DNA from: Pseudomonadota bacterium
GTDB taxonomy: Bacteria > Pseudomonadota > Alphaproteobacteria > Rhizobiales > Aestuariivirgaceae
Reading direction: 5' to 3'
Length of the DNA: 64,000 bases
Assembly: GCA_020161855.1 (NCBI GenBank)
Contig: JAIUNJ010000001.1
Location: 124,001 to 188,000 of the forward strand
Shown: piece by piece, positions 13,746 to 28,964 of the stretch
Layout of the letters: each line of letters opens with the position of its first letter
Position numbering within the stretch: the stretch's first letter is position 1
The notes under the pieces: generated by a model
Databases searched by the model: none
What the model was told of the DNA's origin: nothing
The model's input: the letters and a program-made list of their open reading frames with translations, nothing else
Position numbers and translations under genes: made by a program

Positions 13746-15311
13746 TTACTGCCGCCTGTGTTCGTACACACCGCCTTCGCCAACATGCATGTTGGTCAGG
13801 GTCCGCTCCTGATTCAGCAGGCGCCAGCTCAGAAGTTTCTGCGCATAGGCAAGCTCGGTCGCAAGGTAGGACGGCAGGCCGGCAAGATTTTTCATCTCCT
13901 GCGGATCCGAGACGATGTCGAACAGGAGCGGCGGCAGGGCGGCAAAGTGCACATACTTGAATTTTGCGTCCCTGATCACGGCATAGGAGCATTCGTCGGA
14001 ATTCAGGTTGAGTGCACGCTCGACCTTCTGGCTGCGCACATTCCGGAAATCGTGCTCGAAGTAGACTTCTTCGCGCCACGCGTGCGGCACCTGTCCGCGA
14101 AGAAATGGCAGAAACGACCTTCCGTCGACGGTGCGAGGACTGGCAGCACCAAGCCAGTCCAGAATGGTCGGCATGACGTCGATGGCTTCCGTAAACGAGT
14201 TAATTCTTGAACCACGCGTACTATCGGCCTCCGTCCGGGGATCACGAACGACAAGCGGCAAATGGAAAGATCCGTCGAAATAGATCTCCTTGCCCCATAC
14301 ATAATGGTCACCGAGCATTTCAGCATGATCGCTGGTGACAATAATCAAAGTGCGGTCAAACTGCCCGGTGGCCTTCAGATGCGAAATGATGCGACCGAGA
14401 TGATGATCCATCTCCTCGATCAAGCCATAATAAGTCGCCCTCATCTGCCGGATTTCGAGATCGTTTGTATGCACGAGATCAATGGGGTTGTGCTCGTCGT
14501 AGGCATCGGGGCGCGCGACGTTGGTCAGCTCATGGGCCAGAAGCGGGTGCTGCCCGCCTTCCTCTTCAGGGCTGGCCTTCCGGACAGGGAAATCCACGTC
14601 CTTTGGATGAACCGCCGCGTTGTAAGGTTCGGGTGCAATGATCGGCGGATGGGGACGGAAGAATACAAAATGGGCAAACCAAGGCTTCGACTCCCTGACG
14701 AGAAGCCACTTGATAAACTCATCGGTGAGGAAGGCCGTTTCACTGAGTTGGGCCGGAAAGATGGTCGGAATGAAGCGGAAACCGCGATCATCCGGCTTCA
14801 CGAATCCGGGCTTAGGGCGAAATACGTCGTCACGGCCGTTCGGAAAATCATAGCCGAGCGACTTCAGATGCGCGACCCATTTTCCCATGTCTTCGGGAAG
14901 ATGCAGCGGCGTTGCAAAGCCCGGCATCACGCCCTCGTCATAGGCCGTCAGGGCCGGATCGTTGGGATGCATCTTGCGCGGATCAGGCGTCGTGTCGGTA
15001 TAGCCGAAGAGCGCCGGCTCATAGCCGAGCTTGCGGGCCTCCAGCGCAAGATTTGTGTGACGGGCATCCAGCGGCGTGCCGTTGCGGCCGGAGCGATGGT
15101 TCATGAGATACATGCCCGTCAGCAAGCTGGTGCGCGACGGGCCGCAGGGCGTGCATTGCCCGAAGTGCTGCGTGAAGGTGACAGACTCGGCCATGAGCGC
15201 ATCAAGGTTCGGTGTCCTGACATTGCGGTGGCCCAGGGCACTGATGCAATCAGCCCGCCACTGGTCTGCACAGATCAGCAGGACATTCGGCTTCGTTCCG
15301 TGACTGCTCAT
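13746..15311 (-). CDS. Phosphonate monoester hydrolase / phosphodiesterase of the sulfatase superfamily
   Basis: The 521-residue protein is an alkaline-phosphatase-superfamily hydrolase. C56 in CTPCGPSRTSLLTG is the residue converted to formylglycine in sulfatases and in phosphonate monoester hydrolases. Metal ligands are visible at D16 (ICADQWRAD) and in the later TSDHAEMLGDH. By memory it follows the Rhizobium/Burkholderia phosphonate monoester hydrolases along most of its length: YLMNHRSGRN, TDTTPDPR, EIRQMRATYYGLI, YVHFAALPPLLFD and a C-terminal LSWRLLNQERTLTN. Those enzymes cleave phosphonate monoesters, phosphodiesters and some sulfate esters. It has no signal peptide, so it acts in the cytoplasm on imported substrate. 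It overlaps the ABC ATPase stop by four bases and is the last gene of that operon. Confidence 0.85.
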   Translation of the reverse strand: MSSHGTKPNVLLICADQWRADCISALGHRNVRTPNLDALMAESVTFTQHFGQCTPCGPSRTSLLTGMYLMNHRSGRNGTPLDARHTNLALEARKLGYEPALFGYTDTTPDPRKMHPNDPALTAYDEGVMPGFATPLHLPEDMGKWVAHLKSLGYDFPNGRDDVFRPKPGFVKPDDRGFRFIPTIFPAQLSETAFLTDEFIKWLLVRESKPWFAHFVFFRPHPPIIAPEPYNAAVHPKDVDFPVRKASPEEEGGQHPLLAHELTNVARPDAYDEHNPIDLVHTNDLEIRQMRATYYGLIEEMDHHLGRIISHLKATGQFDRTLIIVTSDHAEMLGDHYVWGKEIYFDGSFHLPLVVRDPRTEADSTRGSRINSFTEAIDVMPTILDWLGAASPRTVDGRSFLPFLRGQVPHAWREEVYFEHDFRNVRSQKVERALNLNSDECSYAVIRDAKFKYVHFAALPPLLFDIVSDPQEMKNLAGLPSYLATELAYAQKLLSWRLLNQERTLTNMHVGEGGVYEHRRQ

Positions 15312-16330
15312 TGTCTCATTTCACTGATCGCGTGCTTCGGGATGCGCAGCGAAACCTTGTCGCCCACCACAAACTTCTCGGCACCCGGCGTGTTCAACAC
15401 GTCGACCTTCACCAGAAGGTCTCCACAGCGCACATAGTGCCGCAATATCGCGACGAGCACCTGCACAGACGAAACGGTGCCTTTCAGCACCGGTCCCTCA
15501 TCCTTCTGCGCGTGGCCCTTGCCCGGCTTCGAAATGTCAATGGACTCAGGCCTCACGGCCCATGTCGCATCGGTGCTGGCATTGAAGAGCGCCTTGACCT
15601 GCGCCGGTTCAAAGAGATTGAAGTCGCCGATGAAGGAGGCCACTGCGAGCCCAGCCGGGCGATTGTAGATGTCGGCCGGCGCACCCACCTGGACAAAGCG
15701 CCCCGACTGCATGATGGCCACCACATCACCCAGCATCAGTGCCTCTTCCTGATCGTGCGTGACGAATATAGCCGTGAAGCCGATCTGATGCTGGAGGCGC
15801 TTCAGTTCCTCGCGCAGGCGCTTGCGGATCTGGGCGTCAAGGGCAGACAGGGGTTCATCGAGCAGAAGCAATTTGGGCTCGAGGATCAAGGCCCGGGCCA
15901 AGGCCACGCGCTGGCGCTGCCCGCCTGAAAGTGCGGCGGGGCGTGCTTTCGCGCGCGCTTCCAGGCCCATCAGTTGAACCATGGCGGCCACTTTCTCTGC
16001 GATGACAGGCGCAGAAAGCTTCTTCTGCTGCAGGCCGAAGGCGAGGTTCTGTTCGACGGTCATGTTGGGGAAAAGCGCATAGTGCTGGAAAACCATGCCG
16101 ACGCCCCTGTTCTTGGCTTCGGTGTGGGTCACATCACGCCCGTCGATATGGATTGTGCCGCCATCCGGTTGCGCCAATCCTGCAACGGCCCGCAACAGCG
16201 TGGTCTTGCCACAACCGGAAGGGCCCACCAAAACGCAGATCTGTCCCTGTGCCACATCCAGATCGATGTTCTGGAAGACGGATGTTCCGTCATAGCTCTT
16301 GGACAGAGAGCGGACTTCAACATAGCTCAC
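15308..16330 (-). CDS. ABC importer ATP-binding subunit (PotA/FbpC/PhnT-like)
   Basis: This is the ATPase of the module A importer. The 340-residue protein has Walker A GPSGCGKT at residues 36-43, signature LSGGQRQRVALARAL, Walker B LLLLDEPLSALD and a C-terminal TOBE-like regulatory domain from about residue 240. The fold and order match spermidine, iron and 2-aminoethylphosphonate importers. Its stop overlaps the hydrolase start, and its start overlaps the permease stop by four bases, so the transporter and hydrolase are one operon. Confidence 0.9.
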   Translation of the reverse strand: MSYVEVRSLSKSYDGTSVFQNIDLDVAQGQICVLVGPSGCGKTTLLRAVAGLAQPDGGTIHIDGRDVTHTEAKNRGVGMVFQHYALFPNMTVEQNLAFGLQQKKLSAPVIAEKVAAMVQLMGLEARAKARPAALSGGQRQRVALARALILEPKLLLLDEPLSALDAQIRKRLREELKRLQHQIGFTAIFVTHDQEEALMLGDVVAIMQSGRFVQVGAPADIYNRPAGLAVASFIGDFNLFEPAQVKALFNASTDATWAVRPESIDISKPGKGHAQKDEGPVLKGTVSSVQVLVAILRHYVRCGDLLVKVDVLNTPGAEKFVVGDKVSLRIPKHAISEMRQ

Positions 16331-17118
16331 TTGTCATCCCTCCGTGAGGCAGCCCACACGACAATTGCCGTCGATGCGAAAATCACAACAAAATAAGTGG
16401 TGATGAGAACGCTCAGCTTGCGGCCGCTGCCGCCATTCAACACACCCATGAAGATCTGCAGCGTCGGAAAGTGGCCGCCCACGAGCAGATTGGCATAAAC
16501 GAAGTCACTCACCGCCAGGGTGAAGTTCATCACCAGGCCGATGATCAATCCCTGCTTGATGCAAGGCACCACGATCTTCGTGAAGATGGCGAAGTCGGAG
16601 GCCCCCAGCAGCCGACCGGCCTCGAAAAGCTCGGTCAGCCGCAATGTCCGCAGGTTGTTCTTGATCGGAACATAGTAGAGCGGCGCGGCAACAGGCATGT
16701 AGCCGAAGATCAGAACCCAAGGCGTGCCGGTGAGAACAATCCCGTAGTTCCCGGAATAGATGCGCAACAGCCCCAGGGCGAGCACGATCCCGGGCACGGC
16801 AAAGGGAAGAATGACGAGAATTGCCATCCAGCGGTCGAGGATCGGGAAATAACAATGGGCAATCAGCACCGCCGGAACCACTATCAGTGGCGTCAGAATC
16901 AGGGAGCCGACACTGACAAGTAGCGAATTGTAGATCGACTGCAGAAAGCGCGGATCTGAGGTGATCGACCTGACGTGGTCCAGTGTATAGCCTTCGGGCA
17001 GCACCGTGCCGGCCCAGTCCGTTGCGAACGCATTGAGGGCCACCGCCAGAATCGGCAGCAGCTGAAATGCCGCTACCAGGCAGATGAAGGCCCAGTCCAA
17101 CCGATTGCGCTCACGCAT
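16327..17118 (-). CDS. ABC importer permease (PotC-like)
   Basis: The 263-residue inner-membrane permease has about six hydrophobic segments. The cytoplasmic EAA-type loop lies around LRLTELFEAGRLLGASDFAIFTKIVVPCI, where the family docks on the ATPase. The N-terminus is MRERNRLDWAF. It overlaps the second permease by 8 bases and the ATPase by 4. It pairs with the product of 17111-17956 to form the channel of the module A importer. Confidence 0.88.
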   Translation of the reverse strand: MRERNRLDWAFICLVAAFQLLPILAVALNAFATDWAGTVLPEGYTLDHVRSITSDPRFLQSIYNSLLVSVGSLILTPLIVVPAVLIAHCYFPILDRWMAILVILPFAVPGIVLALGLLRIYSGNYGIVLTGTPWVLIFGYMPVAAPLYYVPIKNNLRTLRLTELFEAGRLLGASDFAIFTKIVVPCIKQGLIIGLVMNFTLAVSDFVYANLLVGGHFPTLQIFMGVLNGGSGRKLSVLITTYFVVIFASTAIVVWAASRRDDK

Positions 17119-17956
17119 CCGTGTTCTGCCTTGGTTTTATCAGGAACTGGTCGGCGAGAATGGGTACGATGAGGCTGACAACAAGCAGGATAGCCAGCGC
17201 ATCCGCCAGATTGGGATCCGAGAAGACATCTCCAGCCGTCAACTCGCCGATACGAATGGTGACGACGTTGGCACTGCCACCGACCAGGGCCCATGCCGTC
17301 GCGTAAGTGCCCATCGCATTCGCGAAGAGGAGCAGATAGGCGCTGATCAGGCTGGGGGCGAGGATTGGCAGTCCGATCCGCCGCCAGAAGGACCAGCGGC
17401 TCGCGCCCATGAGGAAGGCGGCCTCCTCGATATCCGGGGTGATCGCCCCCAAGCCGGGCAGGAGAAGCAGGATTGCGAAGAGAATCTGAAAGTACGAGTA
17501 GACGATGACGAGTCCAGTGGTGCCGTAGATGTTGAAGCCGTCGAGAATGCCGAGCCTTGCAAAGAGCAACGTAAACGAGCCACTGATGCCAAGCAGGATC
17601 ACGAATGCAAATGCCAGCGGGAAGCCCGTGAAGTTTGCGCCAATGTTTGCACAGATGGTGATGAGCTGTTGAATACGGCCTGGCATACGCCTGAGGACAA
17701 CGCAGATGGGCAAAGCCGCCACCAGTCCGACCAGCGCTGTTGCGGCCGAGATCAGATAGCTGACCTTGAATGAACCGAGATAGAAAGCACTGGTCAGGAT
17801 CTCGGAATAATTCGCAAGAGACAGGAGGTCGGCCGAGAACAGACTGTTCGTGGCCACGGCCAGGAGCGGTATGACTTCAAAGAAAAGCACCACCAGCAGA
17901 AATGGTGCTGTGAAGAGCCATGCAAGGAGCCTGGTGCCTTTAGCGACGGGAATCAT
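17111..17956 (-). CDS. ABC importer permease (PotB-like)
   Basis: The 281-residue permease starts MIPVAKGTRLLAWLF at 17956, with six predicted membrane helices. The EAA loop includes IEEAAFLMGASRWSFWRRIGLPIL. It is separated by 64 bases and a hairpin from the binding-protein gene, which fits the common pattern of high binding-protein and lower permease expression. The substrate is unknown, but context points to a phosphodiester, phosphonate or polyol. Confidence 0.88.
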   Translation of the reverse strand: MIPVAKGTRLLAWLFTAPFLLVVLFFEVIPLLAVATNSLFSADLLSLANYSEILTSAFYLGSFKVSYLISAATALVGLVAALPICVVLRRMPGRIQQLITICANIGANFTGFPLAFAFVILLGISGSFTLLFARLGILDGFNIYGTTGLVIVYSYFQILFAILLLLPGLGAITPDIEEAAFLMGASRWSFWRRIGLPILAPSLISAYLLLFANAMGTYATAWALVGGSANVVTIRIGELTAGDVFSDPNLADALAILLVVSLIVPILADQFLIKPRQNTDA

Positions 17957-17977
17957 GCTTCACTGTCCAAGAAAATC

Positions 17978-18003
17978 GGGCCGCCCCAAAATCGGGACGG
18001 CCC
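17978..18003 (-). other. Intra-operon hairpin between binding-protein and permease genes
   Basis: GGGCCGCCCC and GGGACGGCCC pair (one mismatch) around a six-base loop, 17 bases after the binding-protein stop. There is no T-run. Such hairpins often protect the upstream mRNA and lower permease expression in ABC operons. Confidence 0.55.
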
Positions 18004-18020
18004 CCACGTTCGCACATCGC

Positions 18021-19076
18021 TTACATCTTGGAGAGCACCTGCTCCTGCCATTGCTTGCCAAGGACCTTGGCTGACTCCATCCACAACTCGGCATTCACCG
18101 GCCGTGCCTTCGCATACTGTTCGTTGGGCAAGACGTTATCCGTCAGTTCGGCCGGAACAGTGATGTGGTCGATGAGAATCGGACGAGCGAACCCGCGGGC
18201 AAAGTTGAGCTGACCCGCTTCCGTGAAGATGTATTCGCGCACGACCTTGGCAATGTTTGGCCGTGTCGAGTAGGCGTTGAGAATGGTCGTGTAGCCAGAG
18301 GTGACCGAACCATCCGACGGGATCCACACGTCGAACTTCTCCTTGCCGACCTGGTTGCGATAGTTCAGCGCGTTGAAGTCCCAGATGATGCCGACTTCGA
18401 TCTCGCCTTTTTCCATGTTGCCTGGATTGGCGCCGATCGTGAGCAGGCGCTTCTGTTCGGCAAGCTTGGCGAAAATGTCGAGTGCGGGCTGCAGGTCATG
18501 CTCACCACCGCCGCCGGCAATGGCAGCGGCAAGGACCAGCGCGTTCGATTGGGCGGCCTTTCCGACGTCACCAACGGCGACCTTGTAGGTGCCGTTCACG
18601 AGATCGGAAAAGGCCTTGGGAGGATTCTCGACCTTCTTACTGACGATGAAGGCAATGGTTCCCGTATAACCAAGCATCCAGTGGCCATCGTCGTCCCGCG
18701 CCCAGGTCGGGATCTTGTCCCAGTTAGTCGGCTTGTAGGGCGCACTGATGGCCCGGCGCTTGGCGATGGGGCCAAACTCGAGGCCAATCTCGCCGATGTC
18801 AGCGCTGGCGTTGGCCTTCTCGGCTTCAAACTTTGCCAGTTCCTCGGCACTGCTCATGTCGGTATCGGTGTGGGTCACACCATACTTGGCCATGATGTCC
18901 TTCCACTGACCACCCCAGTTTGCCCAGTCGTCCGGGAGGCCGAGGCTTACGACTGTCCCTTCCTTGCGTGCGGCGGCTTCGATTTCCTCGAGGGTCTCAG
19001 CAAATGCCATGGGGGCGGACAGCATGAGTGCTGAAAGCGCCACACCTTTGGTGAATGCTCTGCGGGTGATGTTCAT
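18021..19076 (-). CDS. Periplasmic substrate-binding protein of module A importer
   Basis: The start at 19076 gives 351 residues and has a strong AGGAG-type site 8 bases upstream. An upstream in-frame extension to 19232 lacks any signal. The N-terminus MNITRRAFTKGVALSALM then PMAFA is a signal peptide, cleaved after about residue 26, with paired arginines. The mature protein is of the iron/putrescine/aminoethylphosphonate-binding type (Pfam SBP_bac family): EEIEAAARKEGTVVSLG near the start and a late GFARPILIDHITVP. It captures the substrate for the permease pair downstream. The ligand cannot be named. Confidence 0.88.
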   Translation of the reverse strand: MNITRRAFTKGVALSALMLSAPMAFAETLEEIEAAARKEGTVVSLGLPDDWANWGGQWKDIMAKYGVTHTDTDMSSAEELAKFEAEKANASADIGEIGLEFGPIAKRRAISAPYKPTNWDKIPTWARDDDGHWMLGYTGTIAFIVSKKVENPPKAFSDLVNGTYKVAVGDVGKAAQSNALVLAAAIAGGGGEHDLQPALDIFAKLAEQKRLLTIGANPGNMEKGEIEVGIIWDFNALNYRNQVGKEKFDVWIPSDGSVTSGYTTILNAYSTRPNIAKVVREYIFTEAGQLNFARGFARPILIDHITVPAELTDNVLPNEQYAKARPVNAELWMESAKVLGKQWQEQVLSKM

Positions 19077-19287
19077 CTTAGCTCCTGGGATTACCTGATG
19101 GACAAAACGTGATTTCAACGACGGGTGAAACACCAGCCTCATCCAGAAATGACGGACGGAAACGGCACGGTTGACCCGTGGTTGGCCGGAGGACGCATGA
19201 CCCCACCGCGTCCGACACGTCATCCTGGACATTGCTCACCAACACTGCCGCACGGCCTCATTGGCGCCCTTCACCAAGGACAACAGA

Positions 19288-19339
19288 ATAAGATGGCTAA
19301 TCAGTCAATCTGTCAATGCCAAAAATGACCGTTCAGTCT
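19288..19339 (-). promoter_or_regulatory. Promoter and operator of the module A importer operon
   Basis: On the minus strand a perfect -35 TTGACA (19311-19316) and a -10 TCTTAT (19288-19293) are separated by 17 bases. Just upstream, at 19326-19339, lies TGACCGTTCAGTCT, one base off the TGAC-N6-GTCA palindrome found twice in the deoR/dehydrogenase gap. A further TGACTG half-site falls in the promoter spacer (19302-19307). A regulator bound here would cover the promoter. Confidence 0.65.
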
Positions 19340-19373
19340 TTTTCTGGAAACTGTAATGACCATGTCATGATTA

Positions 19374-20156
19374 TCAGGGCCGGGATTCGGCAACGACAAT
19401 CTCCACGCCGGCCAAGCGCAAGGCGCTTTCCAACGCGGCATCCGGCGCCCTGTCGGTCACCAGTCTGTCGATCTTCTCGGGTCCGCAAACGTGAAACAAG
19501 GCATTTCGCTGCAGCTTGGAAGAATCTGCGACCACGGTAACTTCGCGCGCCGATTCAATCATCGCCCGCGAGACGTATGCCTCGTCGGCGTTGAAGTCCA
19601 TCATCGCGCCGGTACTGCCGATGCCACTGACGCCAATCACGGCGTGATCTGAGGAAACTTCCTTGATTTGCTCAACAACTTGCGGGCCGAGCAGCTCATA
19701 GGCCTCACCAAAATAGCTACCGCCCAGGAGATGGATGGGGCCGCGCTGCGCAGATCCCCACATCTCGTGTGCGACAAGCGTTGAGTTCGTGATGATCGTG
19801 AATGGACCGCGCCTGGCCAGTTCTTCGGCAAAGAAAATCGTGGTGGTGCCGCAATTGATCAGGATGCTGTCCCCAGGGGTGAACAGCGCCGCGGCCGCCA
19901 CCGCAATGCGCATTTTCTCGTCACGGGCGTTGGCCCGCCGCTCGCCCAGCGGGCTTTCCCTCACCGAGGCCGGATTCTGGGCCGCCGTTGCCCCGCCATG
20001 AATCTTTCGCAGGAGGCCCTGCTCGGACAGAAAACCTAGATCGCGGCGAACAGTTTCCCTTGAAGTATCAAGGAGTTCTGCCAAGCCATCAACGGTCACC
20101 CGCTCCTGTTCCGAGACAAGTTCTATGATACGGCGGTGTCTATCAGCGGGTCGCAT
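19374..20156 (-). CDS. DeoR-family transcriptional regulator (module A)
   Basis: The 260-residue protein has a DeoR-type winged helix at residues 6-58 (TSRETVRRDLGFLSEQGLLRKIHGG). A sugar-phosphate-sensing domain follows, with NCGTTTIFFAEEL and the VVADSSKLQRNALF lysine motif. Regulators of this type usually repress sugar or polyol operons and are released by a phosphorylated intermediate. The start has a GAGGAA ribosome site. It lies between the importer operon (same strand) and the divergent dehydrogenase operon, whose promoters share palindromes, so it very likely controls both and itself. Confidence 0.9.
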   Translation of the reverse strand: MRPADRHRRIIELVSEQERVTVDGLAELLDTSRETVRRDLGFLSEQGLLRKIHGGATAAQNPASVRESPLGERRANARDEKMRIAVAAAALFTPGDSILINCGTTTIFFAEELARRGPFTIITNSTLVAHEMWGSAQRGPIHLLGGSYFGEAYELLGPQVVEQIKEVSSDHAVIGVSGIGSTGAMMDFNADEAYVSRAMIESAREVTVVADSSKLQRNALFHVCGPEKIDRLVTDRAPDAALESALRLAGVEIVVAESRP

Positions 20157-20169
20157 AGATATTCCTCAT

Positions 20170-20213
20170 TGACCATTCGGTCATTCAATGGCACGAGAAT
20201 GACTGTACGGTCA
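20170..20213. promoter_or_regulatory. Two palindromic operators in the deoR / glycerol-1-phosphate dehydrogenase gap
   Basis: TGACCATTCGGTCA (20170-20183) is a perfect TGACC-N4-GGTCA palindrome. TGACTGTACGGTCA (20200-20213) is the same motif with one half-site change. Their centres are exactly 30 bases apart, about three helical turns, on one face of the DNA between divergent genes. They match the site near the importer promoter and are the probable binding sites of the adjacent DeoR regulator. Confidence 0.7.
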
Positions 20214-20315
20214 TATTTTTGGTTCCATCATGCCCCTAGGCTTCCCAAAACTCGCCAAACTCGTCAATGCCAAGCATTGCAGCTCCCTTGCGGCCATCGC
20301 ACCAAGGGGAACGGC

Positions 20316-21617
20316 ATGAGCGCAGATTCCCTCATCGATGCGCTTCTGGCGGGCAACTACACAGATCCGGACAGCGGCTACAAAGTCGGCGTCAAAACAA
20401 AAAGCCTTGTGATCGAACGGTCGCTTGCGGGCGCGGAAGGCGACCTGATCAAGCCGTTTTCCTTTGGGCGAAAACTGGCGGTGGTCAGTGATCCGGCAAC
20501 CCACGCTGTGCTGGGAAAACGGGTCGAGGAGAGTCTCTCCGGGTCGCACCAGGTTACCAGCATCGTTCTCCCGGGCCATCCGCATCCGGACGACAAGACC
20601 GTCGAAAGCGTGCGGCAGAGCACGAAAGCTTGCGATGCACTGATCGCGGTCGGCTCGGGCACAATCAATGATCTTTGCAAATATGCGGCGGCTCAGGACG
20701 GGAAGCCCTACGCTGTCTTTGCGACAGCCCCGTCCATGAATGGCTATACGTCCTACAATGCAGCCATCACCATGCACGGCCACAAGATGTCACTGCCGGC
20801 GCAAGTGCCAACCGGGGCATTCTTTGATCTCGAAGTGCTGGCAGCGGCCCCTCCCCGACTCATCCGGGCGGGACTTGGCGACAGTCTCTGCCGCTGCACG
20901 GCGCAAGCAGACTGGCTGCAGTCACACCTTCTCTTCGGCACAGAATACCGGCAGCTGCCCTTCTCGTTACTCGCAGAGGACGAAGCCCCTCTTTTCGCGA
21001 ATGCCTCAGCGTTGCTGGCAGGTGACCTGGAGACCATGAGGCGGCTGGTGCGCACACTGGTTCTGGCTGGCTTCGGAACGGCCATCATCGGCCACAGCCA
21101 ACCAGCAAGCCAAAGTGAACACCTGGTGAGCCATTTCCTCGACATGTTTGAATCACCTGCACGGCCGCTTGTGTTTCACGGCGAACAGGTGGGGGTCACA
21201 ACGCTTTCAATGGCGCGCCTGCAACAGAGAATGCTCGATGCCTCGCCGGTCATGACTCCCGACACGACCACCGAAGCTGATTTCATCAACCGCTATGGTG
21301 AAGAGCTCGGCAAGTCCTGCTGGCGGGAATTCTCAGCGAAGCAAATCACGGCGAAGCGAGCAGAAGAATTGAACGATCTCTTCAAACAGAAATGGCCGTC
21401 GATCAGCGAACAGCTTTCCAGGGTAATGCTGCCGGCAGAACACCTCGAAGCCGTGCTCAAAGCTGCAGGCGCTCCAACAACGCCTGAGTCAATTCACCTC
21501 TCGCGGGAAGAATACGAGAAGGCCCTGTGCCAAGCGCGGGACATCCGCAACCGGTTCACCGTCCTTGACCTTGCCGCGCGTGCAAATCGCCTCACCCCGT
21601 CTCTTTCGACTTTGTAG
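20316..21617 (+). CDS. sn-Glycerol-1-phosphate dehydrogenase (AraM/EgsA family)
   Basis: The family interconverts dihydroxyacetone phosphate and sn-glycerol 1-phosphate with NAD(P)H. It is essential for archaeal lipids and occurs in some bacteria (AraM). The start at 20316 has an AGGGGA site and gives 433 residues. Seen here: GSGTINDLCKYAA (113-125), APSMNGYTSYNAA, metal-ligand regions GLGDSLCR (D189), QSEHLVSHF (H269) and VFHGEQVGVTTL (H288). It heads a three-gene operon with a TIM-barrel protein and an FGGY kinase, opposite a DeoR gene. In this context it probably runs in the catabolic direction, to dihydroxyacetone phosphate. Confidence 0.9.
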   Translation: MSADSLIDALLAGNYTDPDSGYKVGVKTKSLVIERSLAGAEGDLIKPFSFGRKLAVVSDPATHAVLGKRVEESLSGSHQVTSIVLPGHPHPDDKTVESVRQSTKACDALIAVGSGTINDLCKYAAAQDGKPYAVFATAPSMNGYTSYNAAITMHGHKMSLPAQVPTGAFFDLEVLAAAPPRLIRAGLGDSLCRCTAQADWLQSHLLFGTEYRQLPFSLLAEDEAPLFANASALLAGDLETMRRLVRTLVLAGFGTAIIGHSQPASQSEHLVSHFLDMFESPARPLVFHGEQVGVTTLSMARLQQRMLDASPVMTPDTTTEADFINRYGEELGKSCWREFSAKQITAKRAEELNDLFKQKWPSISEQLSRVMLPAEHLEAVLKAAGAPTTPESIHLSREEYEKALCQARDIRNRFTVLDLAARANRLTPSLSTL

Positions 21618-21715
21618 CCAATCAGGGAACAACACCGCGCTGCATCCCTGCGTTTCGGGCCTTGCAACTGAAGAGGCCCGCTCGAACCAGACAATTCCAT
21701 GCTAAGGAGAACATT

Positions 21716-22402
21716 ATGGATTTCATCTTCATGCTCACCCGCCAGGACCGCACAATCGGGGACTGCCTGAGACTCTATGATGAAATCCGGCCCGTGGGTC
21801 TGAAGCATATCGGCTTCAAGGACGTAGGCGTGGACAAGAGCACGCTCGCGAAGCTGACGGATGCCATCAGGCGGGACGGTGCAACGACCTATATGGAAGT
21901 TGTCTCGACCTCTCCCGAGGATGCGCTCAAATCGGCCCAGAATGCCGTCGAGCTTGGAATAGACCGCCTGCTGGGTGGCACAGATGTCGACGGCATCATG
22001 CAGATCACGAAGGGCTCAAAGACGGACTACTATCCGTTCCCCGGCTTTCCCAAAGGCCATCCCACCAAGCTTGGCGGCAAGCCGGACGACATCATCAAGC
22101 ATTGCCAGAGCTTTATGGCCAAGGGCTGTGCCGGCTGCGACATTCTCGCGTACCGGGCCACCGAAGCCGATCCCATCGCACTGGTGAAGGCGGCGCGCAC
22201 CGGGCTTGGCAAAGGCTACCTGGTCGTTGCAGGTTCAGTAAACTCGATAGACCGCATTTCTGAGGTTGCGAAGGCCGGCGCTGACGCATTCACCATCGGC
22301 TCTGCCGTCTTTGATGGTTCATATGCGCCGCACAAGGGTTCTATCCTGTCACAGCTTGAAGCGGTGGTTGCAGACTGCGAAAGAGTGGACAAAGCCACGT
22401 AA
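21716..22402 (+). CDS. Phosphate-binding TIM-barrel protein, function unknown
   Basis: The start at 21716 follows an AAGGAG site and gives 228 residues (MDFIFMLTRQDRT). The C-terminal half has a HisA/HisF-like phosphate-binding pair, LVVAGSVNS and GADAFTIGSAVFDG, with the GAD strand. The centre has LGIDRLLGGTDVDG. That makes it a barrel acting on a phosphorylated small molecule, but I cannot place it in a named enzyme family. It lacks the N-terminal LLDPDK-like motif I associate with geranylgeranylglyceryl-phosphate synthases. It sits 98 bases after the dehydrogenase and 45 bases before the kinase, so it should act in the same pathway, perhaps as an epimerase, isomerase or aldolase. Confidence 0.75.
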   Translation: MDFIFMLTRQDRTIGDCLRLYDEIRPVGLKHIGFKDVGVDKSTLAKLTDAIRRDGATTYMEVVSTSPEDALKSAQNAVELGIDRLLGGTDVDGIMQITKGSKTDYYPFPGFPKGHPTKLGGKPDDIIKHCQSFMAKGCAGCDILAYRATEADPIALVKAARTGLGKGYLVVAGSVNSIDRISEVAKAGADAFTIGSAVFDGSYAPHKGSILSQLEAVVADCERVDKAT

Positions 22403-22447
22403 TTTGTGCGCAGATACGCTCAAGCCGGGTGAAGGAGTCGCGACGGG

Positions 22448-23911
22448 ATGCTTCTCGGGCTGGACATTGGAACCCAATCGGTCAAAGCGCTGCTTGTCGA
22501 CGAGAGACTTGAGACCCGGGGCATTGGCAATGCTCCGCTTACCTTCACGGCGGGAGCAGATGGCAAGGTTGAGCAACGGCCGCAGGATTGGCTCGATGCA
22601 CTGAAGCCGGCGATCGCGGAGGCCCTCAGATCTGCCGGGCTGCGGAAAGACAATATCCTGTCTCTCGGCATCGGAGGCCAGCTTGACGGCTGCGTCCCCG
22701 TCGATGGCAACGGTGTGCCACTTCATTCCTGTCTCACCTGGATGGACCGGCGTGCCACGAAGGAAGCCGAACGCGTCTCCAAGATAATGATCCGTGAACG
22801 CTGCGGCATCGTCCGGGATGCTTCTCACATGGCGGCCAAGATTGCCTGGCTGCAAGGCCATCTGCCCGATCTGACATGGCGGACAGCAGTCTATCACCAA
22901 CCGGTCAGCTTCGTTGTGCAGCATCTCACAGGCGCCATCGTCATGGATCGCGCCCTTGCATCCACGACCATGCTTTATGATCTCGGCACACAGGGTTGGT
23001 CAGAGCCGTTGCTGGCGGGATTCGGGATAGAAGCCGCCAAGATGCCCGCGATTGCCGGGATGGCGGATGTCGCAGGCCCGCTCACCGACAAGGGCGCTGC
23101 CCTTACAGGTCTTTCACCGGGTCTTGCCGTGGCCGTCGGAACGGGTGACGACTTCACAAACGCCATTGGTGCGGGCCTGCTTTCCCCGGGGGCCATGCTT
23201 TGCCAGGTGGGCACGGGAGAAGTGGTTGGTGCCCTGCACCCCACCTGCAGCATCGACGACAAGGCCCTGCTCGAAACCCATGAGTTTGCTGACGGCCACT
23301 ACTTTATCGAGAACCCGGGCTGGCTGAGCGGTGGCGCGATTGCCTGGCTGGTGAAGCTTCTGCGATTGTCCGGAACCGATGAACTGAACCAAATGGCTGC
23401 CCGGATTCCACCCGGATCCGACGGCGTGCTGTTCTTCCCCGCACTGACCGGCGCCATGGCGCCTGAATGGAACGCCAACATCCATGCCTGCTTTCACAAT
23501 CTGAGTGCCAATCACGGCGCAGGCCATCTGATCCGTGCGGTCCTTGAAGGCACGGCCCTTGCGATGCGCGATGTTCAAATTCGGCTGGCGGGCATGGGAG
23601 TCACGGTCGATCGCATCGTGCTCGCAGGCGGTGGCGCTGCAAGCGAGCTCTGGGCGCAGATCCGCGCGGACGTCGCCCAGCTGCCCGTGGATGTCTGCGG
23701 CGCAAAAGATGCATCACCGCTTGGAGCGGCCGTGCTGGCGGCCGTCGCGGCCGGCAAGCTGAAGACGATCTCTGAGGCAGCACCGCTTCTCAACACCGCT
23801 AACCGACGCGTTTCACCAGATCTGCGCCTCAAGCCCGTCTATGATGAGGCGCACGCCCGTTATCGTAACCTCTTCTCTCATCTGAAGGCCATGGCCCCAT
23901 CTGCAGACTAA
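22448..23911 (+). CDS. FGGY-family carbohydrate kinase (xylulokinase-like)
   Basis: The 487-residue kinase begins LLGLDIGTQSVKALLVDE, the N-terminal phosphate loop of the FGGY fold. A catalytic aspartate region is at GGQLDGCVPVD. The C-terminal ATP site is IVLAGGGAASELW with ASPLGAAVLAAVA. Spacing of motifs is most like xylulokinase, but FGGY substrates (xylulose, glycerol, erythritol and others) cannot be told by eye. It ends the dehydrogenase operon and probably activates the imported polyol or sugar. A GAAGGAG site precedes the ATG. Confidence 0.88.
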   Translation: MLLGLDIGTQSVKALLVDERLETRGIGNAPLTFTAGADGKVEQRPQDWLDALKPAIAEALRSAGLRKDNILSLGIGGQLDGCVPVDGNGVPLHSCLTWMDRRATKEAERVSKIMIRERCGIVRDASHMAAKIAWLQGHLPDLTWRTAVYHQPVSFVVQHLTGAIVMDRALASTTMLYDLGTQGWSEPLLAGFGIEAAKMPAIAGMADVAGPLTDKGAALTGLSPGLAVAVGTGDDFTNAIGAGLLSPGAMLCQVGTGEVVGALHPTCSIDDKALLETHEFADGHYFIENPGWLSGGAIAWLVKLLRLSGTDELNQMAARIPPGSDGVLFFPALTGAMAPEWNANIHACFHNLSANHGAGHLIRAVLEGTALAMRDVQIRLAGMGVTVDRIVLAGGGAASELWAQIRADVAQLPVDVCGAKDASPLGAAVLAAVAAGKLKTISEAAPLLNTANRRVSPDLRLKPVYDEAHARYRNLFSHLKAMAPSAD

Positions 23912-23952: not shown

Positions 23953-24777
23953 TCACGTCCCGCGATAGCCGAACTTCACAATGCCGGTGCGCATCAGGAC
24001 GTACATGAGAGCGAAAATCGTGAAGACCAGGGCATTGGTCATCGCCGCAATGGCAAAGAGCTCGGGTCCCAGCCCAAATCTCAGCGAACCCCAGGCCACG
24101 GAAGGCAGCGTCGGAATGGCGCCAAGATTGTAGAACGAGATTTCCAGATTGTTGAAGGCAAGGATGAAGCTGATCAGAAATGCGCCGAACACACTGGGCC
24201 AGATCGTCGGCAGCGTGACCTCCCAGAAACAGCGCAGCGGCTTTGCCCCAAACACCATGGCGGCGTCGTCCATCTGCCAGTCGTAGCGCACCAGCTGTGA
24301 AAGGATGATCAGGAAGGAGAATGCCACGCCTTCCACGGCATTGGCGGCAATTGCAGAGAAGATATTTCCCGAAAGACCCAGGATCCGCGCATTGAATGCC
24401 AGGGAGGATATGCCGATGAGGAGCTCGGCAACAAACAATGGTGACAGAAAGACGATGAAAAGCGCAGTGCGGTAACGCGAGGGATAGCGCAGCAGGCCGA
24501 TCACGGCGGCCGTTGCTATCAGCGTCGAGAGAACGCCGCTGCCAACGCCAATCTTCAGGCTGTTGATCAAGGCATCACCATAGAGAGAGTCATTGAAGAC
24601 ATTCGCGTAAGCCTGAAGTGTCAGGCTCGGTGGAAACGGCCAGACGATGTCCTCCGAGAACGAGGCGTAGATGACATAGGCAATCGGCGCGTAGAGAAAA
24701 ATGTAGAGCAGGCCAAGTGCGACGGCCATCAGCCACTTGCGATACTCAACACCAGATACCGCTCCATAAGTTGTCAT
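23953..24777 (-). CDS. ABC importer permease (PotC-like), module B
   Basis: I start it at 24777, giving 274 residues from MTTYGAVSGVEYRKW. The longer open frame to 25041 only overlaps the next permease. The chosen ATG overlaps that gene's stop by four bases (ATGA), which supports it. Six hydrophobic segments and the EAA-type loop DDAAMVFGAKPLRCFWEVTLPTI are visible. It lies convergent with the kinase gene and is the last gene of the module B importer operon. Confidence 0.88.
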   Translation of the reverse strand: MTTYGAVSGVEYRKWLMAVALGLLYIFLYAPIAYVIYASFSEDIVWPFPPSLTLQAYANVFNDSLYGDALINSLKIGVGSGVLSTLIATAAVIGLLRYPSRYRTALFIVFLSPLFVAELLIGISSLAFNARILGLSGNIFSAIAANAVEGVAFSFLIILSQLVRYDWQMDDAAMVFGAKPLRCFWEVTLPTIWPSVFGAFLISFILAFNNLEISFYNLGAIPTLPSVAWGSLRFGLGPELFAIAAMTNALVFTIFALMYVLMRTGIVKFGYRGT

Positions 24778-25676
24778 CGACGGCCTCCGGTGAAGCCGCT
24801 GCGGCGCGGATTGATGGTGAAGCCCATCAGGAGAACGATGGCACATGAGACAACAAACAGAACAACGCTCATCGCTGATCCAAGCGCCCAGGTCCCTGTC
24901 TCGCCAAACTGCTGACTGAGGCTCATTCCGAATGACGTGGATTTCGGCCCCCCGAGAAATCGAGGCGTGACCGCTGATGCGAGACAGGGAATGAAAACCA
25001 GAATGAGGCCGATTGCAGTTCCGATCCAGTTGAGGGGCCACGTGACTTCAACAAAGGCGCGAAGCGGACCGGCGCCATTGATCTTAGCTGTTTCCAGAAG
25101 CGCGAAATCAAAGTTGACCAATGATAGGTAGATCGCGGTGACCATGAAGGGCATGAAGAGATAGACATGGCCGAGCGTGGCGGCGACCGGCGTATACATA
25201 AGAGCTTCGATCGGCTGGAGGCCGACCATGCCAAGCGCCATGTTGATGAGACCGCCAGGCCCCAGGATGCCCTGCAGGGCGGCAATGCGCAGAATGACAC
25301 CGGTAAAGAATGGCGCGGCGAGCAGCAGAACCAACAGCAGGCGATATCTGCCGCCATGCCTGGCAATGAAATAGGCGACGGGCCAGGCATATACGAGGCA
25401 GATGAAGGATGTTGCCAGGGCACCCAGAGCAGAGCGCACCAGGAAGACGCGATAGGCGGGCTCCCGGAACAGAACCCAGTAGTTCTCCAGATTCCAGTCC
25501 ATGAAAAGCTCGTAGCTTTCGGTTTTCCAGAAGCTGAAAACAACAACCGCCAACAACGGCAGCAGCAGGGTCACGATAATGAAGATGATGCCCGGACCGA
25601 TCAGAAGCAGTTGTGGCGGAATCTTCCACCGTGCAGGCACACCTGCCTCTGGAGCCTGTATTTCAAGGCTTGTCAC
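24774..25676 (-). CDS. ABC importer permease (PotB-like), module B
   Basis: The 300-residue permease has a cytoplasmic N-terminus, six membrane segments and the docking loop LLETAKINGAGPLRAFVEVTWPL. Its start overlaps the ATPase stop by 14 bases. The architecture follows the spermidine/putrescine permease PotB, but solute class cannot be set by sequence alone. It partners the 23953-24777 product. Confidence 0.88.
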   Translation of the reverse strand: MTSLEIQAPEAGVPARWKIPPQLLLIGPGIIFIIVTLLLPLLAVVVFSFWKTESYELFMDWNLENYWVLFREPAYRVFLVRSALGALATSFICLVYAWPVAYFIARHGGRYRLLLVLLLAAPFFTGVILRIAALQGILGPGGLINMALGMVGLQPIEALMYTPVAATLGHVYLFMPFMVTAIYLSLVNFDFALLETAKINGAGPLRAFVEVTWPLNWIGTAIGLILVFIPCLASAVTPRFLGGPKSTSFGMSLSQQFGETGTWALGSAMSVVLFVVSCAIVLLMGFTINPRRSGFTGGRR

Positions 25677-26796
25677 GGAAGCAAACTCCGGCTGTCTGGG
25701 GCCATTCTACAAGAACGCTGTCACCGGCTCGTACATCCGTGTCGCGGAGAGAGCCGCTGGCAATCAGTTCACAGCCATTGTCGATTTCTAGAATGAAGTT
25801 TGCCGTCTGTCCCTTGAAGATAATGTCCCGTAGCTTTCCTTTCAGCCTGTTGAACGCAGCCTGGTCCCTACTTGCCCTGCCCATGGCACGCAGCTGGACA
25901 TCTTCGTGCTTGATCATGAAACGCACGGCCTCGCCCGCACCCAAAGTCTCATTGCACGGCACCGTAAGCTCCCGTCCCTTCCAGTCGATCACAAGCTGGC
26001 CGGCCGCGCACTGCATGACCTTGCCCAGCAGATGATTGGACTGTCCGACAAATGAAGCGACAAAGGCCGTGGCTGGCTTCTGATAGACTTCCACCCGTGG
26101 CGCTATCTGCTCGAACACCCCATTCCGCATCACGGCGATGCGATCACTCATCGTCAGGGCCTCTTCCTGATTGTGCGTGACATAGATGAAGGGAATTCTG
26201 AGTTCCTTCTGGTAGCGGCGGATTTCGACTTCCATCTCGGCGCGAAGCTCGCGGTCAAGATTGGCGAGTGGTTCGTCGAGCAACAGAAGTGTTGGCCTTG
26301 AGATCAGGCCGCGCGCCAAAGACACGCGTTGTTGCTGGCCGCCTGACAGCTGGTTCGGATATCGCGCCTCAAGACCCTTGAGCTTGAGAAGATTGAGTGC
26401 CCACCCCAATCGCTCGACACATTCCTCCCGCGAGGCGCGCTGCATGCGCAACGGAAAGATGATGTTCTCGGCAACGGTCTTGTGTGGAAAAAGCAGGAAG
26501 TTCTGAAAGACCATGCCGATCTTTCGCCGGTAGGGAGGCTGCCGCGTGACATCCTGCCCGCCAACGACAACGGTGCCGCGATCCGGCAGTTCAAGGCCCG
26601 CAATTATTCTGAGCAACGTCGTCTTGCCGGAGCCACTCGGCCCCAACAGCGAAAGAAACTCGTCCTGCCCAACCGACAGGTCAATGCCATCAACGGCCTT
26701 GACCTGGCCGAAGCGTTTGCTGATGCCGCGAAGCGACAGCGAGACGGGCCCTTCGCCCATGCTCACAGCCGCCTCGCCTTGTTCTTCTCCACGCAT
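25663..26796 (-). CDS. ABC importer ATP-binding subunit (PotA-like), module B
   Basis: The 377-residue ATPase has Walker A LGPSGSGKTTLL near residue 51, signature QLSGGQQQRVSLARGL, Walker B LLLLDEPLANLD and a C-terminal TOBE domain (about 290-370). The start at 26796 has an AGGTAGGGA site. A second ATG 12 codons in is possible. It lies 22 bases after the binding-protein gene and drives the module B importer. Confidence 0.9.
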   Translation of the reverse strand: MRGEEQGEAAVSMGEGPVSLSLRGISKRFGQVKAVDGIDLSVGQDEFLSLLGPSGSGKTTLLRIIAGLELPDRGTVVVGGQDVTRQPPYRRKIGMVFQNFLLFPHKTVAENIIFPLRMQRASREECVERLGWALNLLKLKGLEARYPNQLSGGQQQRVSLARGLISRPTLLLLDEPLANLDRELRAEMEVEIRRYQKELRIPFIYVTHNQEEALTMSDRIAVMRNGVFEQIAPRVEVYQKPATAFVASFVGQSNHLLGKVMQCAAGQLVIDWKGRELTVPCNETLGAGEAVRFMIKHEDVQLRAMGRASRDQAAFNRLKGKLRDIIFKGQTANFILEIDNGCELIASGSLRDTDVRAGDSVLVEWPQTAGVCFRDKP

Positions 26797-26818
26797 GCGT
26801 CCCTACCTGATGAACTGA

Positions 26819-28006
26819 TCAGGACGCTTCCACATCTGACCAGATCCGTTCCCATTTCTCGGGCGAAGAGGGTTGGTCAAACATGTGCAGCTGGCTGGCC
26901 TCCGCACTGCGATTCTGGAAATAGAGTTCGCTCTCGTCCGCCGTCAGGATGGAGCGCACGTCGACCACGCCACCATAGCCTGTGGAACGCACAACCTTCG
27001 CATAGTTGTCCTTCTGAAGGAACAGGTCGATCCATTTGTGAGCGAGTTCGGTCCGCTCAGAGTCGGCCTCCGAACTGATCATCCAGGTGTCAACCCATCC
27101 CAGTCCACCCTCCTTGGGCTTCAGGACATGCTCGACATCGAAGTTCAGCTTTCCGTCCTTCTTCAGCACGGTGAGATGACGATAGGTTTCGGCAAACTCG
27201 GGTGCAGCCCAGACGGAATTCGCCCGCATCAGACGATCGAGGGCGTCGTAGTCCTGGTAGCGCGTGAGCAGCAGCTTCTTCTGCTCGATCAGGAGCCGCT
27301 TGGTCTCTTCAAGTTCGGCATCCGTGAGCTGATAGGGATTAAACGGCTTGCCGTCGGGACGGGGGCCATCCTTCGTTCCCAGCCTGGTCGCCGCCAGAAT
27401 GCCCATTAGCGCAATGTTCTCTTCAAAGCGCGAATTGGTGGCCAGGTGGCCAGCATATTTGCTGTTAAGAAGAAGCTCGATGGAACCAATGTCTTCCTTG
27501 GCGACATTGGTGGTGTTCACCGTGATTCCGTAGCCACCCCAGCAGTTGGGCGCTGCAACGTTGTTCTTGCCCTCCTCATCGGCAAGCAGCTTGAAGCTCT
27601 GCGGCAGGAAATCGGGGAAGACGCCGCTCATGTTCGGAATCTTGCTGTAGTCCACAGCCTTGGTGAGGCCCTGACGAAAATAGAGGCGCGGCCAGAAACC
27701 ATCGGCCATGACCATATCGAAGTCCTTGGTGCCGCCGACCTTGAGCTTGTTGAAGGCTTCCGAATTGCCGTCAAAGAAGGTCGGAGCAAATTTGGCGCCG
27801 GTCGTAGATTCAAATTCCGACACAATCTCCTTGATGGAATAGGGCTGCCACATGAGCAGCCGCAATGTCGGCGTCGCAGCTTCGCTGTTGCTGATAAAGG
27901 GACCCGGCCGGCCGAACACGAGGGCGCCAGCCGCGACTGCCGTCCCGCTCTTCAAGAGCTGCCGGCGCGAGAGTGATTTAGCATTTCCTTTCAGTGCCTT
28001 AGACAT
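26819..28006 (-). CDS. Periplasmic substrate-binding protein (PotD-like), module B
   Basis: Starting at 28006, after an AAGGAG site, the protein has 395 residues. The N-terminus carries SLSRRQLLKSG followed by a hydrophobic stretch, a twin-arginine-type signal, so it may be exported folded. The mature part resembles the PotD/SBP_bac family: VSEFESTTGAKFAPTFFDGNSEAFNKL and NCWGGYGITVNT. It is the first gene of the module B importer operon, divergent from the second DeoR gene. Confidence 0.88.
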   Translation of the reverse strand: MSKALKGNAKSLSRRQLLKSGTAVAAGALVFGRPGPFISNSEAATPTLRLLMWQPYSIKEIVSEFESTTGAKFAPTFFDGNSEAFNKLKVGGTKDFDMVMADGFWPRLYFRQGLTKAVDYSKIPNMSGVFPDFLPQSFKLLADEEGKNNVAAPNCWGGYGITVNTTNVAKEDIGSIELLLNSKYAGHLATNSRFEENIALMGILAATRLGTKDGPRPDGKPFNPYQLTDAELEETKRLLIEQKKLLLTRYQDYDALDRLMRANSVWAAPEFAETYRHLTVLKKDGKLNFDVEHVLKPKEGGLGWVDTWMISSEADSERTELAHKWIDLFLQKDNYAKVVRSTGYGGVVDVRSILTADESELYFQNRSAEASQLHMFDQPSSPEKWERIWSDVEAS

Positions 28007-28065
28007 AGTGGGCTCCTTCCCTTGGTGGTTCTTGTATTTTTGTGGTTGGCAACTCATACAACAAT

Positions 28066-28115
28066 ATTGCTATCAATTGCAAGAAAATGCTATAAACTGC
28101 ACATAAATGCAAAAA
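28066..28115. repeat. Five tandem 10-bp repeats between module B importer and deoR
   Basis: Five contiguous units of exactly 10 bases share the pattern A(A/T/C)TGC(A/T)...A: ATTGCTATCA, ATTGCAAGAA, AATGCTATAA, ACTGCACATA and AATGCAAAAA. The TGC core recurs at 28068, 28078, 28088, 28098 and 28108. The period is about one helical turn, so all copies face one side. The array sits in the 153-base gap between divergent genes and also contains phased A-tracts. It is the likely binding platform of the adjacent DeoR regulator. Confidence 0.75.
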
Positions 28116-28159
28116 ACACCAGCTGGCTCAAGCCGGTGGACTGAGATGGGAGACCAATC

Positions 28160-28918
28160 GTGCTTGCCGAAGAGCGCCAAAAACAAATCCTCTCTCTCGT
28201 GAAATCCCACCGCTCGATGTCGATCACCGACATCCAGCGGAATCTGAACGTCTCCCGGGAAACCATCAGGCGGGACCTCCTGGCGCTGGCCGAGCAGCGC
28301 AAACTGCGGAAGACGCATGGGGGCGCCATTTCACTGGAGAGCCAGGAACCGGAGATGGCGGTGCGCCAGACAACCAATGTCGGCGGCAAGCGCGCCATCG
28401 GTCTGCTCGCGGCCAGCATGATCCCGGATGGCGCTTCCGTTATACTTGCCGGTGGCACGACCATCCAAAGTGCTGCAGATGCGCTGCAGACCAGACATTC
28501 GCTGACTGTCTTCACAAACTGCATCTCCAGCGCACAGAAACTCACGGGCCGGAACAACAACCGCATCCATCTTCTCGGCGGTGAGATCCAGACCCAGAAC
28601 CAGGTCTGCCTTGGACGAGATGCAACACACATGCTCTCCAACTATTTCGCCGACTTTGCCCTTGTCGGTGCCGGTGCAATCGCGCCGAATGGATATCTGA
28701 TGGACTTCAGCAGGGAAGAGGCGGAGCTGCACAGCCTGATGGTCCGCTCAGCACAGACAGTCATTGTTCTAGCCGATCACCAGAAATTTGGAAGGTACGC
28801 ACCAGTGCGCGTCGAAGCCCTCGACAAGGCCCACTATCTCGTGACCGACAGGGAGCCGAGCAGCGACATGGCGGAGGTCCTGTCGCCCCTCGCCATCGAT
28901 GTTCTCATCGCAAGCTAG
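28160..28918 (+). CDS. DeoR-family transcriptional regulator (module B)
   Basis: The 252-residue regulator starts at a GTG (28160; MLAEERQKQILSLV). The helix-turn-helix spans about residues 3-57 (NVSRETIRRDLLALAEQRKLRKTHGG). The effector domain includes ILAGGTTIQ and VLADHQKFGRYAPV. It is divergent from the importer binding-protein gene and followed 46 bases later by the class II aldolase. It probably represses importer and aldolase until a sugar phosphate is present. Confidence 0.9.
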   Translation: MLAEERQKQILSLVKSHRSMSITDIQRNLNVSRETIRRDLLALAEQRKLRKTHGGAISLESQEPEMAVRQTTNVGGKRAIGLLAASMIPDGASVILAGGTTIQSAADALQTRHSLTVFTNCISSAQKLTGRNNNRIHLLGGEIQTQNQVCLGRDATHMLSNYFADFALVGAGAIAPNGYLMDFSREEAELHSLMVRSAQTVIVLADHQKFGRYAPVRVEALDKAHYLVTDREPSSDMAEVLSPLAIDVLIAS

Positions 28919-28964
28919 AAGCCAAAAATTTAATCACAAGACACACAGGAATCCGGAGATCAAG

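Follow-up and report, generated by a model that had tools for sequence, protein, structure and literature searches.

Among the described systems closest to the locus considered here is the araABDLMNPQ-abfA operon of Bacillus subtilis, in which, according to those sections of PMC3207120 that deal with it, AraM stands together with an importer and a HAD phosphatase. The present locus lies in the window, i.e., the whole stretch of 64,000 nucleotides that was analysed (positions 124,001 to 188,000 of contig JAIUNJ010000001.1, assembly GCA_020161855.1), from an alphaproteobacterium of the Aestuariivirgaceae, and combines an AraM-type dehydrogenase with a hydrolase of the phosphonate-monoester hydrolase (PMH)/PehA kind, ABC importers, a TIM barrel, an FGGY kinase, a class II aldolase and DeoR-type regulators. 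AraB and AraD of the ara operon presumably belong to the FGGY kinase superfamily and to that of the class II aldolase fold. On this assumption, and within what the source covers, both systems bring together an FGGY kinase, an enzyme of the class II aldolase fold, AraM and an ABC importer. Unlike the ara operon, this locus has DeoR regulators, a phosphoester arm and the TIM barrel, and the genes scanned between 13746 and 29630 include no match to arabinose isomerase or arabinofuranosidase families.

The locus is real, regulated and larger than described in the first-pass annotation, and it is a variant of known sugar-phosphate catabolic loci. Tentatively, and with somewhat less than even confidence, we read it as an island under DeoR control for the breakdown of a phosphate-linked polyol, ending at dihydroxyacetone phosphate (DHAP), in which every substrate is a prediction. 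Importer A would bring in a phosphodiester or another phosphate ester, which the PMH would cut in the cytoplasm, giving rise to a polyol phosphate and/or a polyol. Free polyol, supplied by the PMH or by importer B, would be phosphorylated by the FGGY kinase, and the AraM-type enzyme would oxidise the polyol-1-phosphate at C2 to a ketose-1-phosphate, with the same chemistry that leads from sn-glycerol 1-phosphate (G1P) to DHAP. Splitting of the ketose-1-phosphate by the class II aldolase would then release DHAP and an aldehyde, and the barrel would act on DHAP or on a ketose phosphate. If the polyol were glycerol, the AraM product would be DHAP itself, and the scheme put forward at the outset, from imported phosphodiester through G1P to DHAP, would become a special, and the simplest, case. 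The longer sequence of polyol-1-phosphate, ketose-1-phosphate and DHAP is preferred over one with G1P only because kinase, AraM and aldolase recur together, and because the action of AraM on a longer polyol-1-phosphate would yield the kind of substrate split by a FucA-type aldolase. DHAP as the end point, already claimed in the first-pass annotation, is supported as likely.

The nine genes listed in that annotation (hydrolase, four-gene importer, DeoR regulator, AraM, barrel and FGGY kinase) were all confirmed as open frames in their broad families and in the claimed arrangement. On the minus strand the order is DeoR, binding protein, two permeases, ATPase and PMH-like hydrolase, and on the plus strand it is AraM-type dehydrogenase, barrel and FGGY kinase. 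Permease, permease, ATPase and PMH overlap in succession by 8, 4 and 4 bases. Closing the locus at 23911 was premature, as related genes continue directly after the kinase (23953-29630), with importer B on the minus strand and DeoR B and the aldolase on the plus strand. The earlier scheme missed these genes and gave the barrel and the kinase no role.

The proposal that the locus is regulated as one unit is supported by three copies of the pattern TGACYRTWCRGTC, confined to the two intergenic regions of the locus and without any further exact match in the assembly (G000; 3.36 Mb, completeness about 92%), in which the pattern read backwards occurs once. The pattern was written after inspection of the three sites, so that the evidence lies in its rarity elsewhere, and the result speaks only for locus specificity and for a position before both arms. 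DeoR A presumably binds these three predicted operator-like sites. No palindrome comparable to them was found before importer B. At another locus (L088), where importer, barrel, AraM, DeoR and PMH stand together without an FGGY match, a looser pattern with one mismatch gave three matches, none of them between importer and barrel, against a chance mean of 0.85 and three or more in 7 of 100 shuffles; the use of the same operator there is unsupported.

Table 1. Features of the locus, with positions counted along the window.
Feature	Positions	Strand	Remarks
PMH/PehA-like phosphodiester/phosphonate-monoester hydrolase	13746..15311	-	Sulfatase/PehA-like match
ABC ATPase, importer A	15308..16330	-	best NCBIfam model PhnT2, below cut-off
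Permease (BPD), importer A	16327..17118	-	
Permease (BPD), importer A	17111..17956	-	
Solute-binding protein (SBP_bac_6), importer A	18021..19076	-	signal-like N-terminus at probable start; longer open reading frame (ORF) reaches 19232
Operator-like site	19326..19339		between DeoR A and binding protein, upstream of importer A
DeoR/GlpR-type regulator A	19374..20156	-	
Operator-like site	20170..20183		between DeoR A and AraM
Operator-like site	20200..20213		between DeoR A and AraM
AraM-type (Fe-ADH_2, AraM/EgsA) dehydrogenase	20316..21617	+	ORF from 20136, probable start 20316
Phosphate-binding-type TIM barrel	21716..22402	+	no Pfam family; ORF from 21662, probable start 21716
FGGY kinase, XylB-like	22448..23911	+	motif GQLDGC
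Permease, importer B	23953..25041	-	counterparts are permeases of L066, L072, L077; first codons of ORF probably not the start
Permease, importer B	24774..25676	-	counterparts in other barrel loci
ABC ATPase, importer B	25663..26796	-	
Solute-binding protein (SBP_bac_8), importer B	26819..28057	-	75-81% identical to L066, L072, L077
DeoR-type regulator B	28160..28918	+	
Class II aldolase (Aldolase_II)	28899..29630	+	53-79% identical to aldolases of 7 barrel loci

The extended gene set recurs around relatives of the barrel. A contig scan gave at least 557 confirmed relatives of this protein, and neighbours were counted by tblastn within 6 kb in the best 80 loci, which had been chosen for their barrel, independently of the extension genes; since several contigs are short, these counts are lower bounds. 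Counterparts of importer B (61-81% identity) were found in three of the 80 (L066, L072, L077), of DeoR B (58-76%) in four (L066, L076, L077, L098) and of the aldolase in seven (L066, L076, L077, L078, L082, L094, L098), the L098 aldolase being FucA-like, yet under the FucA cut-offs. L076 belongs to a cultured relative, Dongia deserti, which also has AraM, barrel and FGGY kinase. Neither importer B permease gave a Pfam match at 1e-5. In L066 (Rhodospirillaceae bacterium R-7), importer B, DeoR B, aldolase, FGGY kinase, AraM and barrel lie in one stretch, of which the 20.7 kb matched neither PMH nor binding protein A.

AraM was found near the barrel in 37 of the 80 loci, in 24 of them on the same strand and less than 200 bases away. 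Other neighbours are DeoR (28 loci), FGGY kinases of at least 40% identity (24), HAD-IIB phosphatases (20), GlpD (9), class II aldolase (7), other FGGY kinases (6), GlpK (4) and PMH (2). Conversely, an AraM of 50% identity or more occurs in nine of 289 genomes of the class, and each of these nine also carries a barrel of at least 50%, present in 17 of the 289 (hypergeometric P ~7e-13; with this genome left out, 8 of 8 versus 16 of 288, P ~1e-11). The association is not chance, the P values here and those given below for PMH being merely indicative because the genomes are related. In G178, G200 and for one AraM copy of G087, AraM and barrel stand well apart or on separate contigs.

The barrel itself (pLDDT 95.9) has no Pfam match and no match to a PDB sequence at 0.001, and its model resembles OMP decarboxylase, KDPG aldolase, ThiE, TrpA and PcrB (TMq 0.60-0.68); Lys35, Glu61, His115 and Arg147 are among the residues invariant in 37 sequences. 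DHAP can be formed by each of PdxA2, GlpD, AraM and FucA-type aldolases, and since these four kinds of enzyme are the neighbours of the barrel, it is placed at DHAP or next to it. A replacement triosephosphate isomerase is an unsupported assignment: the barrel lacks membership of PF00121 (triosephosphate isomerase) at 0.001, and this family is found twice in this genome and in 20 of 22 barrel genomes (out of 27 with a barrel match, this genome being counted apart and 4 with weak partial matches omitted), the two lacking it, G071 and G224, being assemblies of about 660 and 450 contigs. The barrel may have an auxiliary role. A PcrB-like G1P enzyme was likewise rejected, as PcrB with G1P stands at rank 46 of the Foldseek list (TMq 0.60), an unspecific match outranked by OMP decarboxylase, KDPG aldolase, ThiE and TrpA.

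Paralogues of the barrel (36-43% identity) were seen at ten loci (L037-L040, L060-L065), with PdxA in eight and a DUF1537 kinase in four. These tetronate-type PdxA loci share with the present one the barrel paralogue, and differ from it in having no AraM match and in the barrel frame continuing into a cupin domain in 7 of the 10. Several of these paralogues are named '4-hydroxythreonine-4-phosphate dehydrogenase' in plasmid records, a name probably taken from the neighbouring gene. In Acidocella (L086, L095) the barrel and a GlpK-GlpD pair are divergently oriented, and the kinase of L095, though GlpK-like, scores under the GlpK cut-off.

The AraM model (pLDDT 94) has as its best match, in sequence and fold, the Ni-dependent G1P dehydrogenase (G1PDH) AraM of B. 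subtilis (9h4x; E 1.5e-23; 25% identity over 435 alignment columns), followed by a clostridial glycerol dehydrogenase, archaeal G1PDHs and then GldA and FucO. D189, H269 and H288 (numbered from the Met at 20316) align with a conserved D, H and H, which we take to be the metal ligands, kept in both proteins. Unlike B. subtilis AraM, the enzyme here has PMH, importer A, class II aldolase and barrel as partners, and N142 replaces the Asp of the S-x-D-G motif, which is found in B. subtilis AraM, two archaeal G1PDHs and a clostridial glycerol dehydrogenase (solved chains 9h4x, 3ce9, 4rgq, 4rfl and 5fb3). As read from the alignment, all 46 rows of close relatives have Asn here (some rows representing the same contig twice), and so do 13 of 17 other AraM loci, the remaining four (L239, L242, L245, L246) having Asp. 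The motif Asp may define G1PDH activity; since the gene sets of L239 and L242 (Asp) resemble that of L149 (Asn), the change alone is no proof of another substrate. The score against the NCBIfam G1P dehydrogenase model (174 bits) is under its cut-off of 413, and G1P is a plausible, if rather unlikely, substrate of this enzyme.

The company of kinase and aldolase extends to more distant AraMs. Both accompany 4 of the 10 class-sample AraM loci of less than 45% identity (L237, which belongs to this genome, L239, L240, L242), L246 has the FGGY kinase without an aldolase, and both are missing from the other five, of which one lies on a contig of 6.4 kb. Among 46 plasmid records with an AraM match, the four loci opened all contain FGGY kinase, AraM, HAD phosphatase and aldolase; three of them carry an annotated GlpD, and the fourth has it in two pieces. 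In these alphaproteobacterial plasmids (L148-L151), AraM-HAD-GlpD adjoins a SorC-type regulator, the kinase, an ABC importer and the aldolase. A second AraM of the genome studied here (42%; L237, G000:C7:521500-541000) shares its gene run with a class II aldolase, an FGGY kinase, a carbohydrate ABC importer and a SorC-type regulator; neither barrel nor PMH is part of this run. As for the kinase of the locus, it scores under the curated cut-offs of both XylB (310 versus 380) and GlpK (182 versus 590). The QLDGC motif was seen in 22 of 25 neighbouring FGGY kinases read, and its acidic residue sits, as we assume, where GlpK has Glu84 and XylB has His78.

That importer A carries phosphate esters, as had been proposed, is a well supported prediction from the neighbours of its relatives; glycerophospho-glycerol is no more than a candidate cargo. 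Among the matches in 385 class genomes, no relative of binding protein A exceeds 34% identity. In a phylum sample of 299 genomes (1e-60), 16 other genomes have relatives of 51-57% identity over the matched stretch, and in all 16 a type I phosphodiesterase adjoins the binding protein, in the order PhnR-like regulator (divergent), binding protein, type I phosphodiesterase, permease, permease, ATPase and HAD phosphatase (family names taken from the Pseudomonas aeruginosa copies). The ABC subunits are of the same type as those here; the two systems differ in that the other operon has a type I phosphodiesterase (269 aa in the P. aeruginosa copy) and a HAD phosphatase, and the present locus PMH, AraM, barrel and FGGY kinase, none of these four giving a match in the 16-kb stretches read from the 16 genomes. 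The three plasmids opened of 318 with a match (P. aeruginosa, Enterococcus faecium, Meiothermus) also have the phosphodiesterase beside the importer, and 179 Enterococcus plasmid records match the binding protein. Across copies of this operon (L216-L231, L182-L184), the regulator and the HAD phosphatase were not seen in those of E. faecium and Meiothermus. Membership of the 2-aminoethylphosphonate importer PhnSTUV failed, all scores being under their cut-offs (PhnS 30 versus 395, PhnT2 342 versus 458, PhnV 61 versus 359, PhnU 27 versus 283). The closest solved relative of the binding protein is 5t1p, presumably a Campylobacter jejuni protein from an organism with a similar operon. In the part of PMC7176700 concerned, cj0727-cj0732 is named among operons of no assigned function, and a literature search on Campylobacter and Pseudomonas locus tags found no ligand for importers of this type.

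The hydrolase resembles PehA/PMH enzymes over nearly its full length (2vqr, 2w8s, 4upk, and also the sulfatase 4uph), and has the formylglycine motif CGPSR (CxPSR) at residue 56, the genome containing one match to FGE (PF03781); it differs in scoring 615 against the NCBIfam PehA model, under the cut-off of 900. Judged by eye, its N-terminus has no signal peptide. PMH occurs in 7 of the 9 genomes with a close AraM, compared with 45 of 289 (P ~4e-5; without this genome, 6 of 8 versus 44 of 288, P ~2e-4), so that the link of PMH to the other genes is real but occasional. Besides the present one, 16 of 53 PMH loci were opened, picked by identity or genome and not at random. An importer-A-type binding protein lies beside PMH in two of them (L250, L251), of one genus and with the closest PMHs (58%), and other ABC genes lie near PMH in several. 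In L248, PMH, aldolase, FGGY kinase and AraM form a closely spaced run on the minus strand; PMH is beside an aldolase in L259, and a barrel is 2.6 kb from PMH in L045 (the genome of L111). No pathway genes were seen in L253 and L261-L263, apart from one ATPase in L261.

Several of these counts weigh against a polyol phosphate island. The aldolase lies near the barrel in only 7 of the 80 loci and PMH in 2, and the rarity of importer B and the aldolase there weakens the reading slightly; GlpD, in nine, points to glycerol phosphate itself, and 34 of the 80 have none of AraM, GlpD, GlpK or a close FGGY kinase. The 16 PMH loci yielded aldolase in two (L248, L259) and AraM (L248), barrel and HAD phosphatase (L255) in one each, and a close AraM is missing from 38 of the 45 PMH genomes. 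The close-AraM loci L247 and L249, the latter at a contig end, show no kinase, aldolase or PMH nearby, and in rhizobial AraM loci an SDR is also present as a possible oxidising enzyme.

It could be proposed instead that a glycerophosphodiester is imported (deacylated phosphatidylglycerol, lipoteichoic acid or an archaeal-lipid fragment), from which PMH would free G1P for oxidation to DHAP by AraM, while the FGGY kinase would phosphorylate the glycerol set free. The fold of AraM, nearest the B. subtilis G1PDH, an organophosphate-type importer next to a hydrolase, the GlpD neighbours of the barrel (five of the nine with AraM, and those scanned, in L071, L092, L086 and L149, passing the curated cut-off) and the AraM-HAD-GlpD groups on plasmids all favour this proposal. 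In addition, lipoteichoic acid is a G1P polymer from which GlpQ does not release G1P, as stated in the portion of PMC7086022 that deals with it, and a G1P-consuming pathway would thus have real substrates. However, G1P as the substrate of AraM and its release by the hydrolase, both claimed initially, are no more than conjecture: Asn stands in place of the motif Asp (as also in most of the other AraMs read), kinase and aldolase are frequent partners, the class II aldolase would be superfluous, and the kinase is under the GlpK cut-off. Of the claim for the hydrolase, its link to such importers and, in a few genomes, to AraM or the barrel is what stands. Moreover, no GlpD or HAD was found beside the AraM of the window with the families searched, and no GlpQ-type Pfam match among the genes scanned, GlpQ being judged by that scan only. 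We hold this proposal to be rather unlikely.

Less probable still is a role like that in the ara operon, in which AraM, next to a sugar kinase and an aldolase, would reduce DHAP to G1P and thereby serve redox balance or overflow. A HAD phosphatase would assist it, as AraL does in araL-araM, and the carbon source would be an ordinary sugar or polyol entering through importer B. The kinds of protein agree with araBDLMNPQ (FGGY kinase, class II aldolase fold, HAD, AraM and ABC importer), as far as these are covered in PMC3207120, and 16 of the 20 barrel loci with a HAD phosphatase also have AraM; against this, the presence of importer A and PMH behind shared operator-like sites would be left unexplained, and no HAD of this type was found in the window. 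A mirror-image glycerol route, with the FGGY kinase making G1P, AraM oxidising it and the barrel processing DHAP, would fit the acidic residue at the presumed Glu84 position of GlpK and the barrel beside GlpK-GlpD in Acidocella. Nevertheless, the canonical triosephosphate isomerase is present here and in nearly all barrel genomes tested, and we know of no G1P-forming glycerol kinase, so that this route is very improbable. The polyol phosphate reading is the one preferred.

Farther along the window, after an N-formylglutamate amidohydrolase gene (38634-39434), open frames on the plus strand continue to about 51.7 kb. At title level, no published description of the locus was found in the literature, with subscription journals thinly covered.

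To our knowledge, the natural roles of bacterial AraM outside Bacillus and of the promiscuous PMH/PehA hydrolases have not been established, and the locus offers concrete partners for both. It also helps to define a conserved barrel family, without a Pfam model, beside the DHAP-yielding enzymes AraM, GlpD, class II aldolase and PdxA2. A dedicated bacterial dissimilation of G1P compounds, with uptake of debris from archaeal lipids, of lipoteichoic acid or of phosphatidylglycerol headgroups, hydrolysis by PMH, oxidation by AraM, and DHAP passing to a barrel family that would also have a part in the catabolism of tetronate and glycerol, is an unlikely outcome; if a G1P ester were the true substrate, one natural fate of the 'wrong' glycerol phosphate would be revealed.

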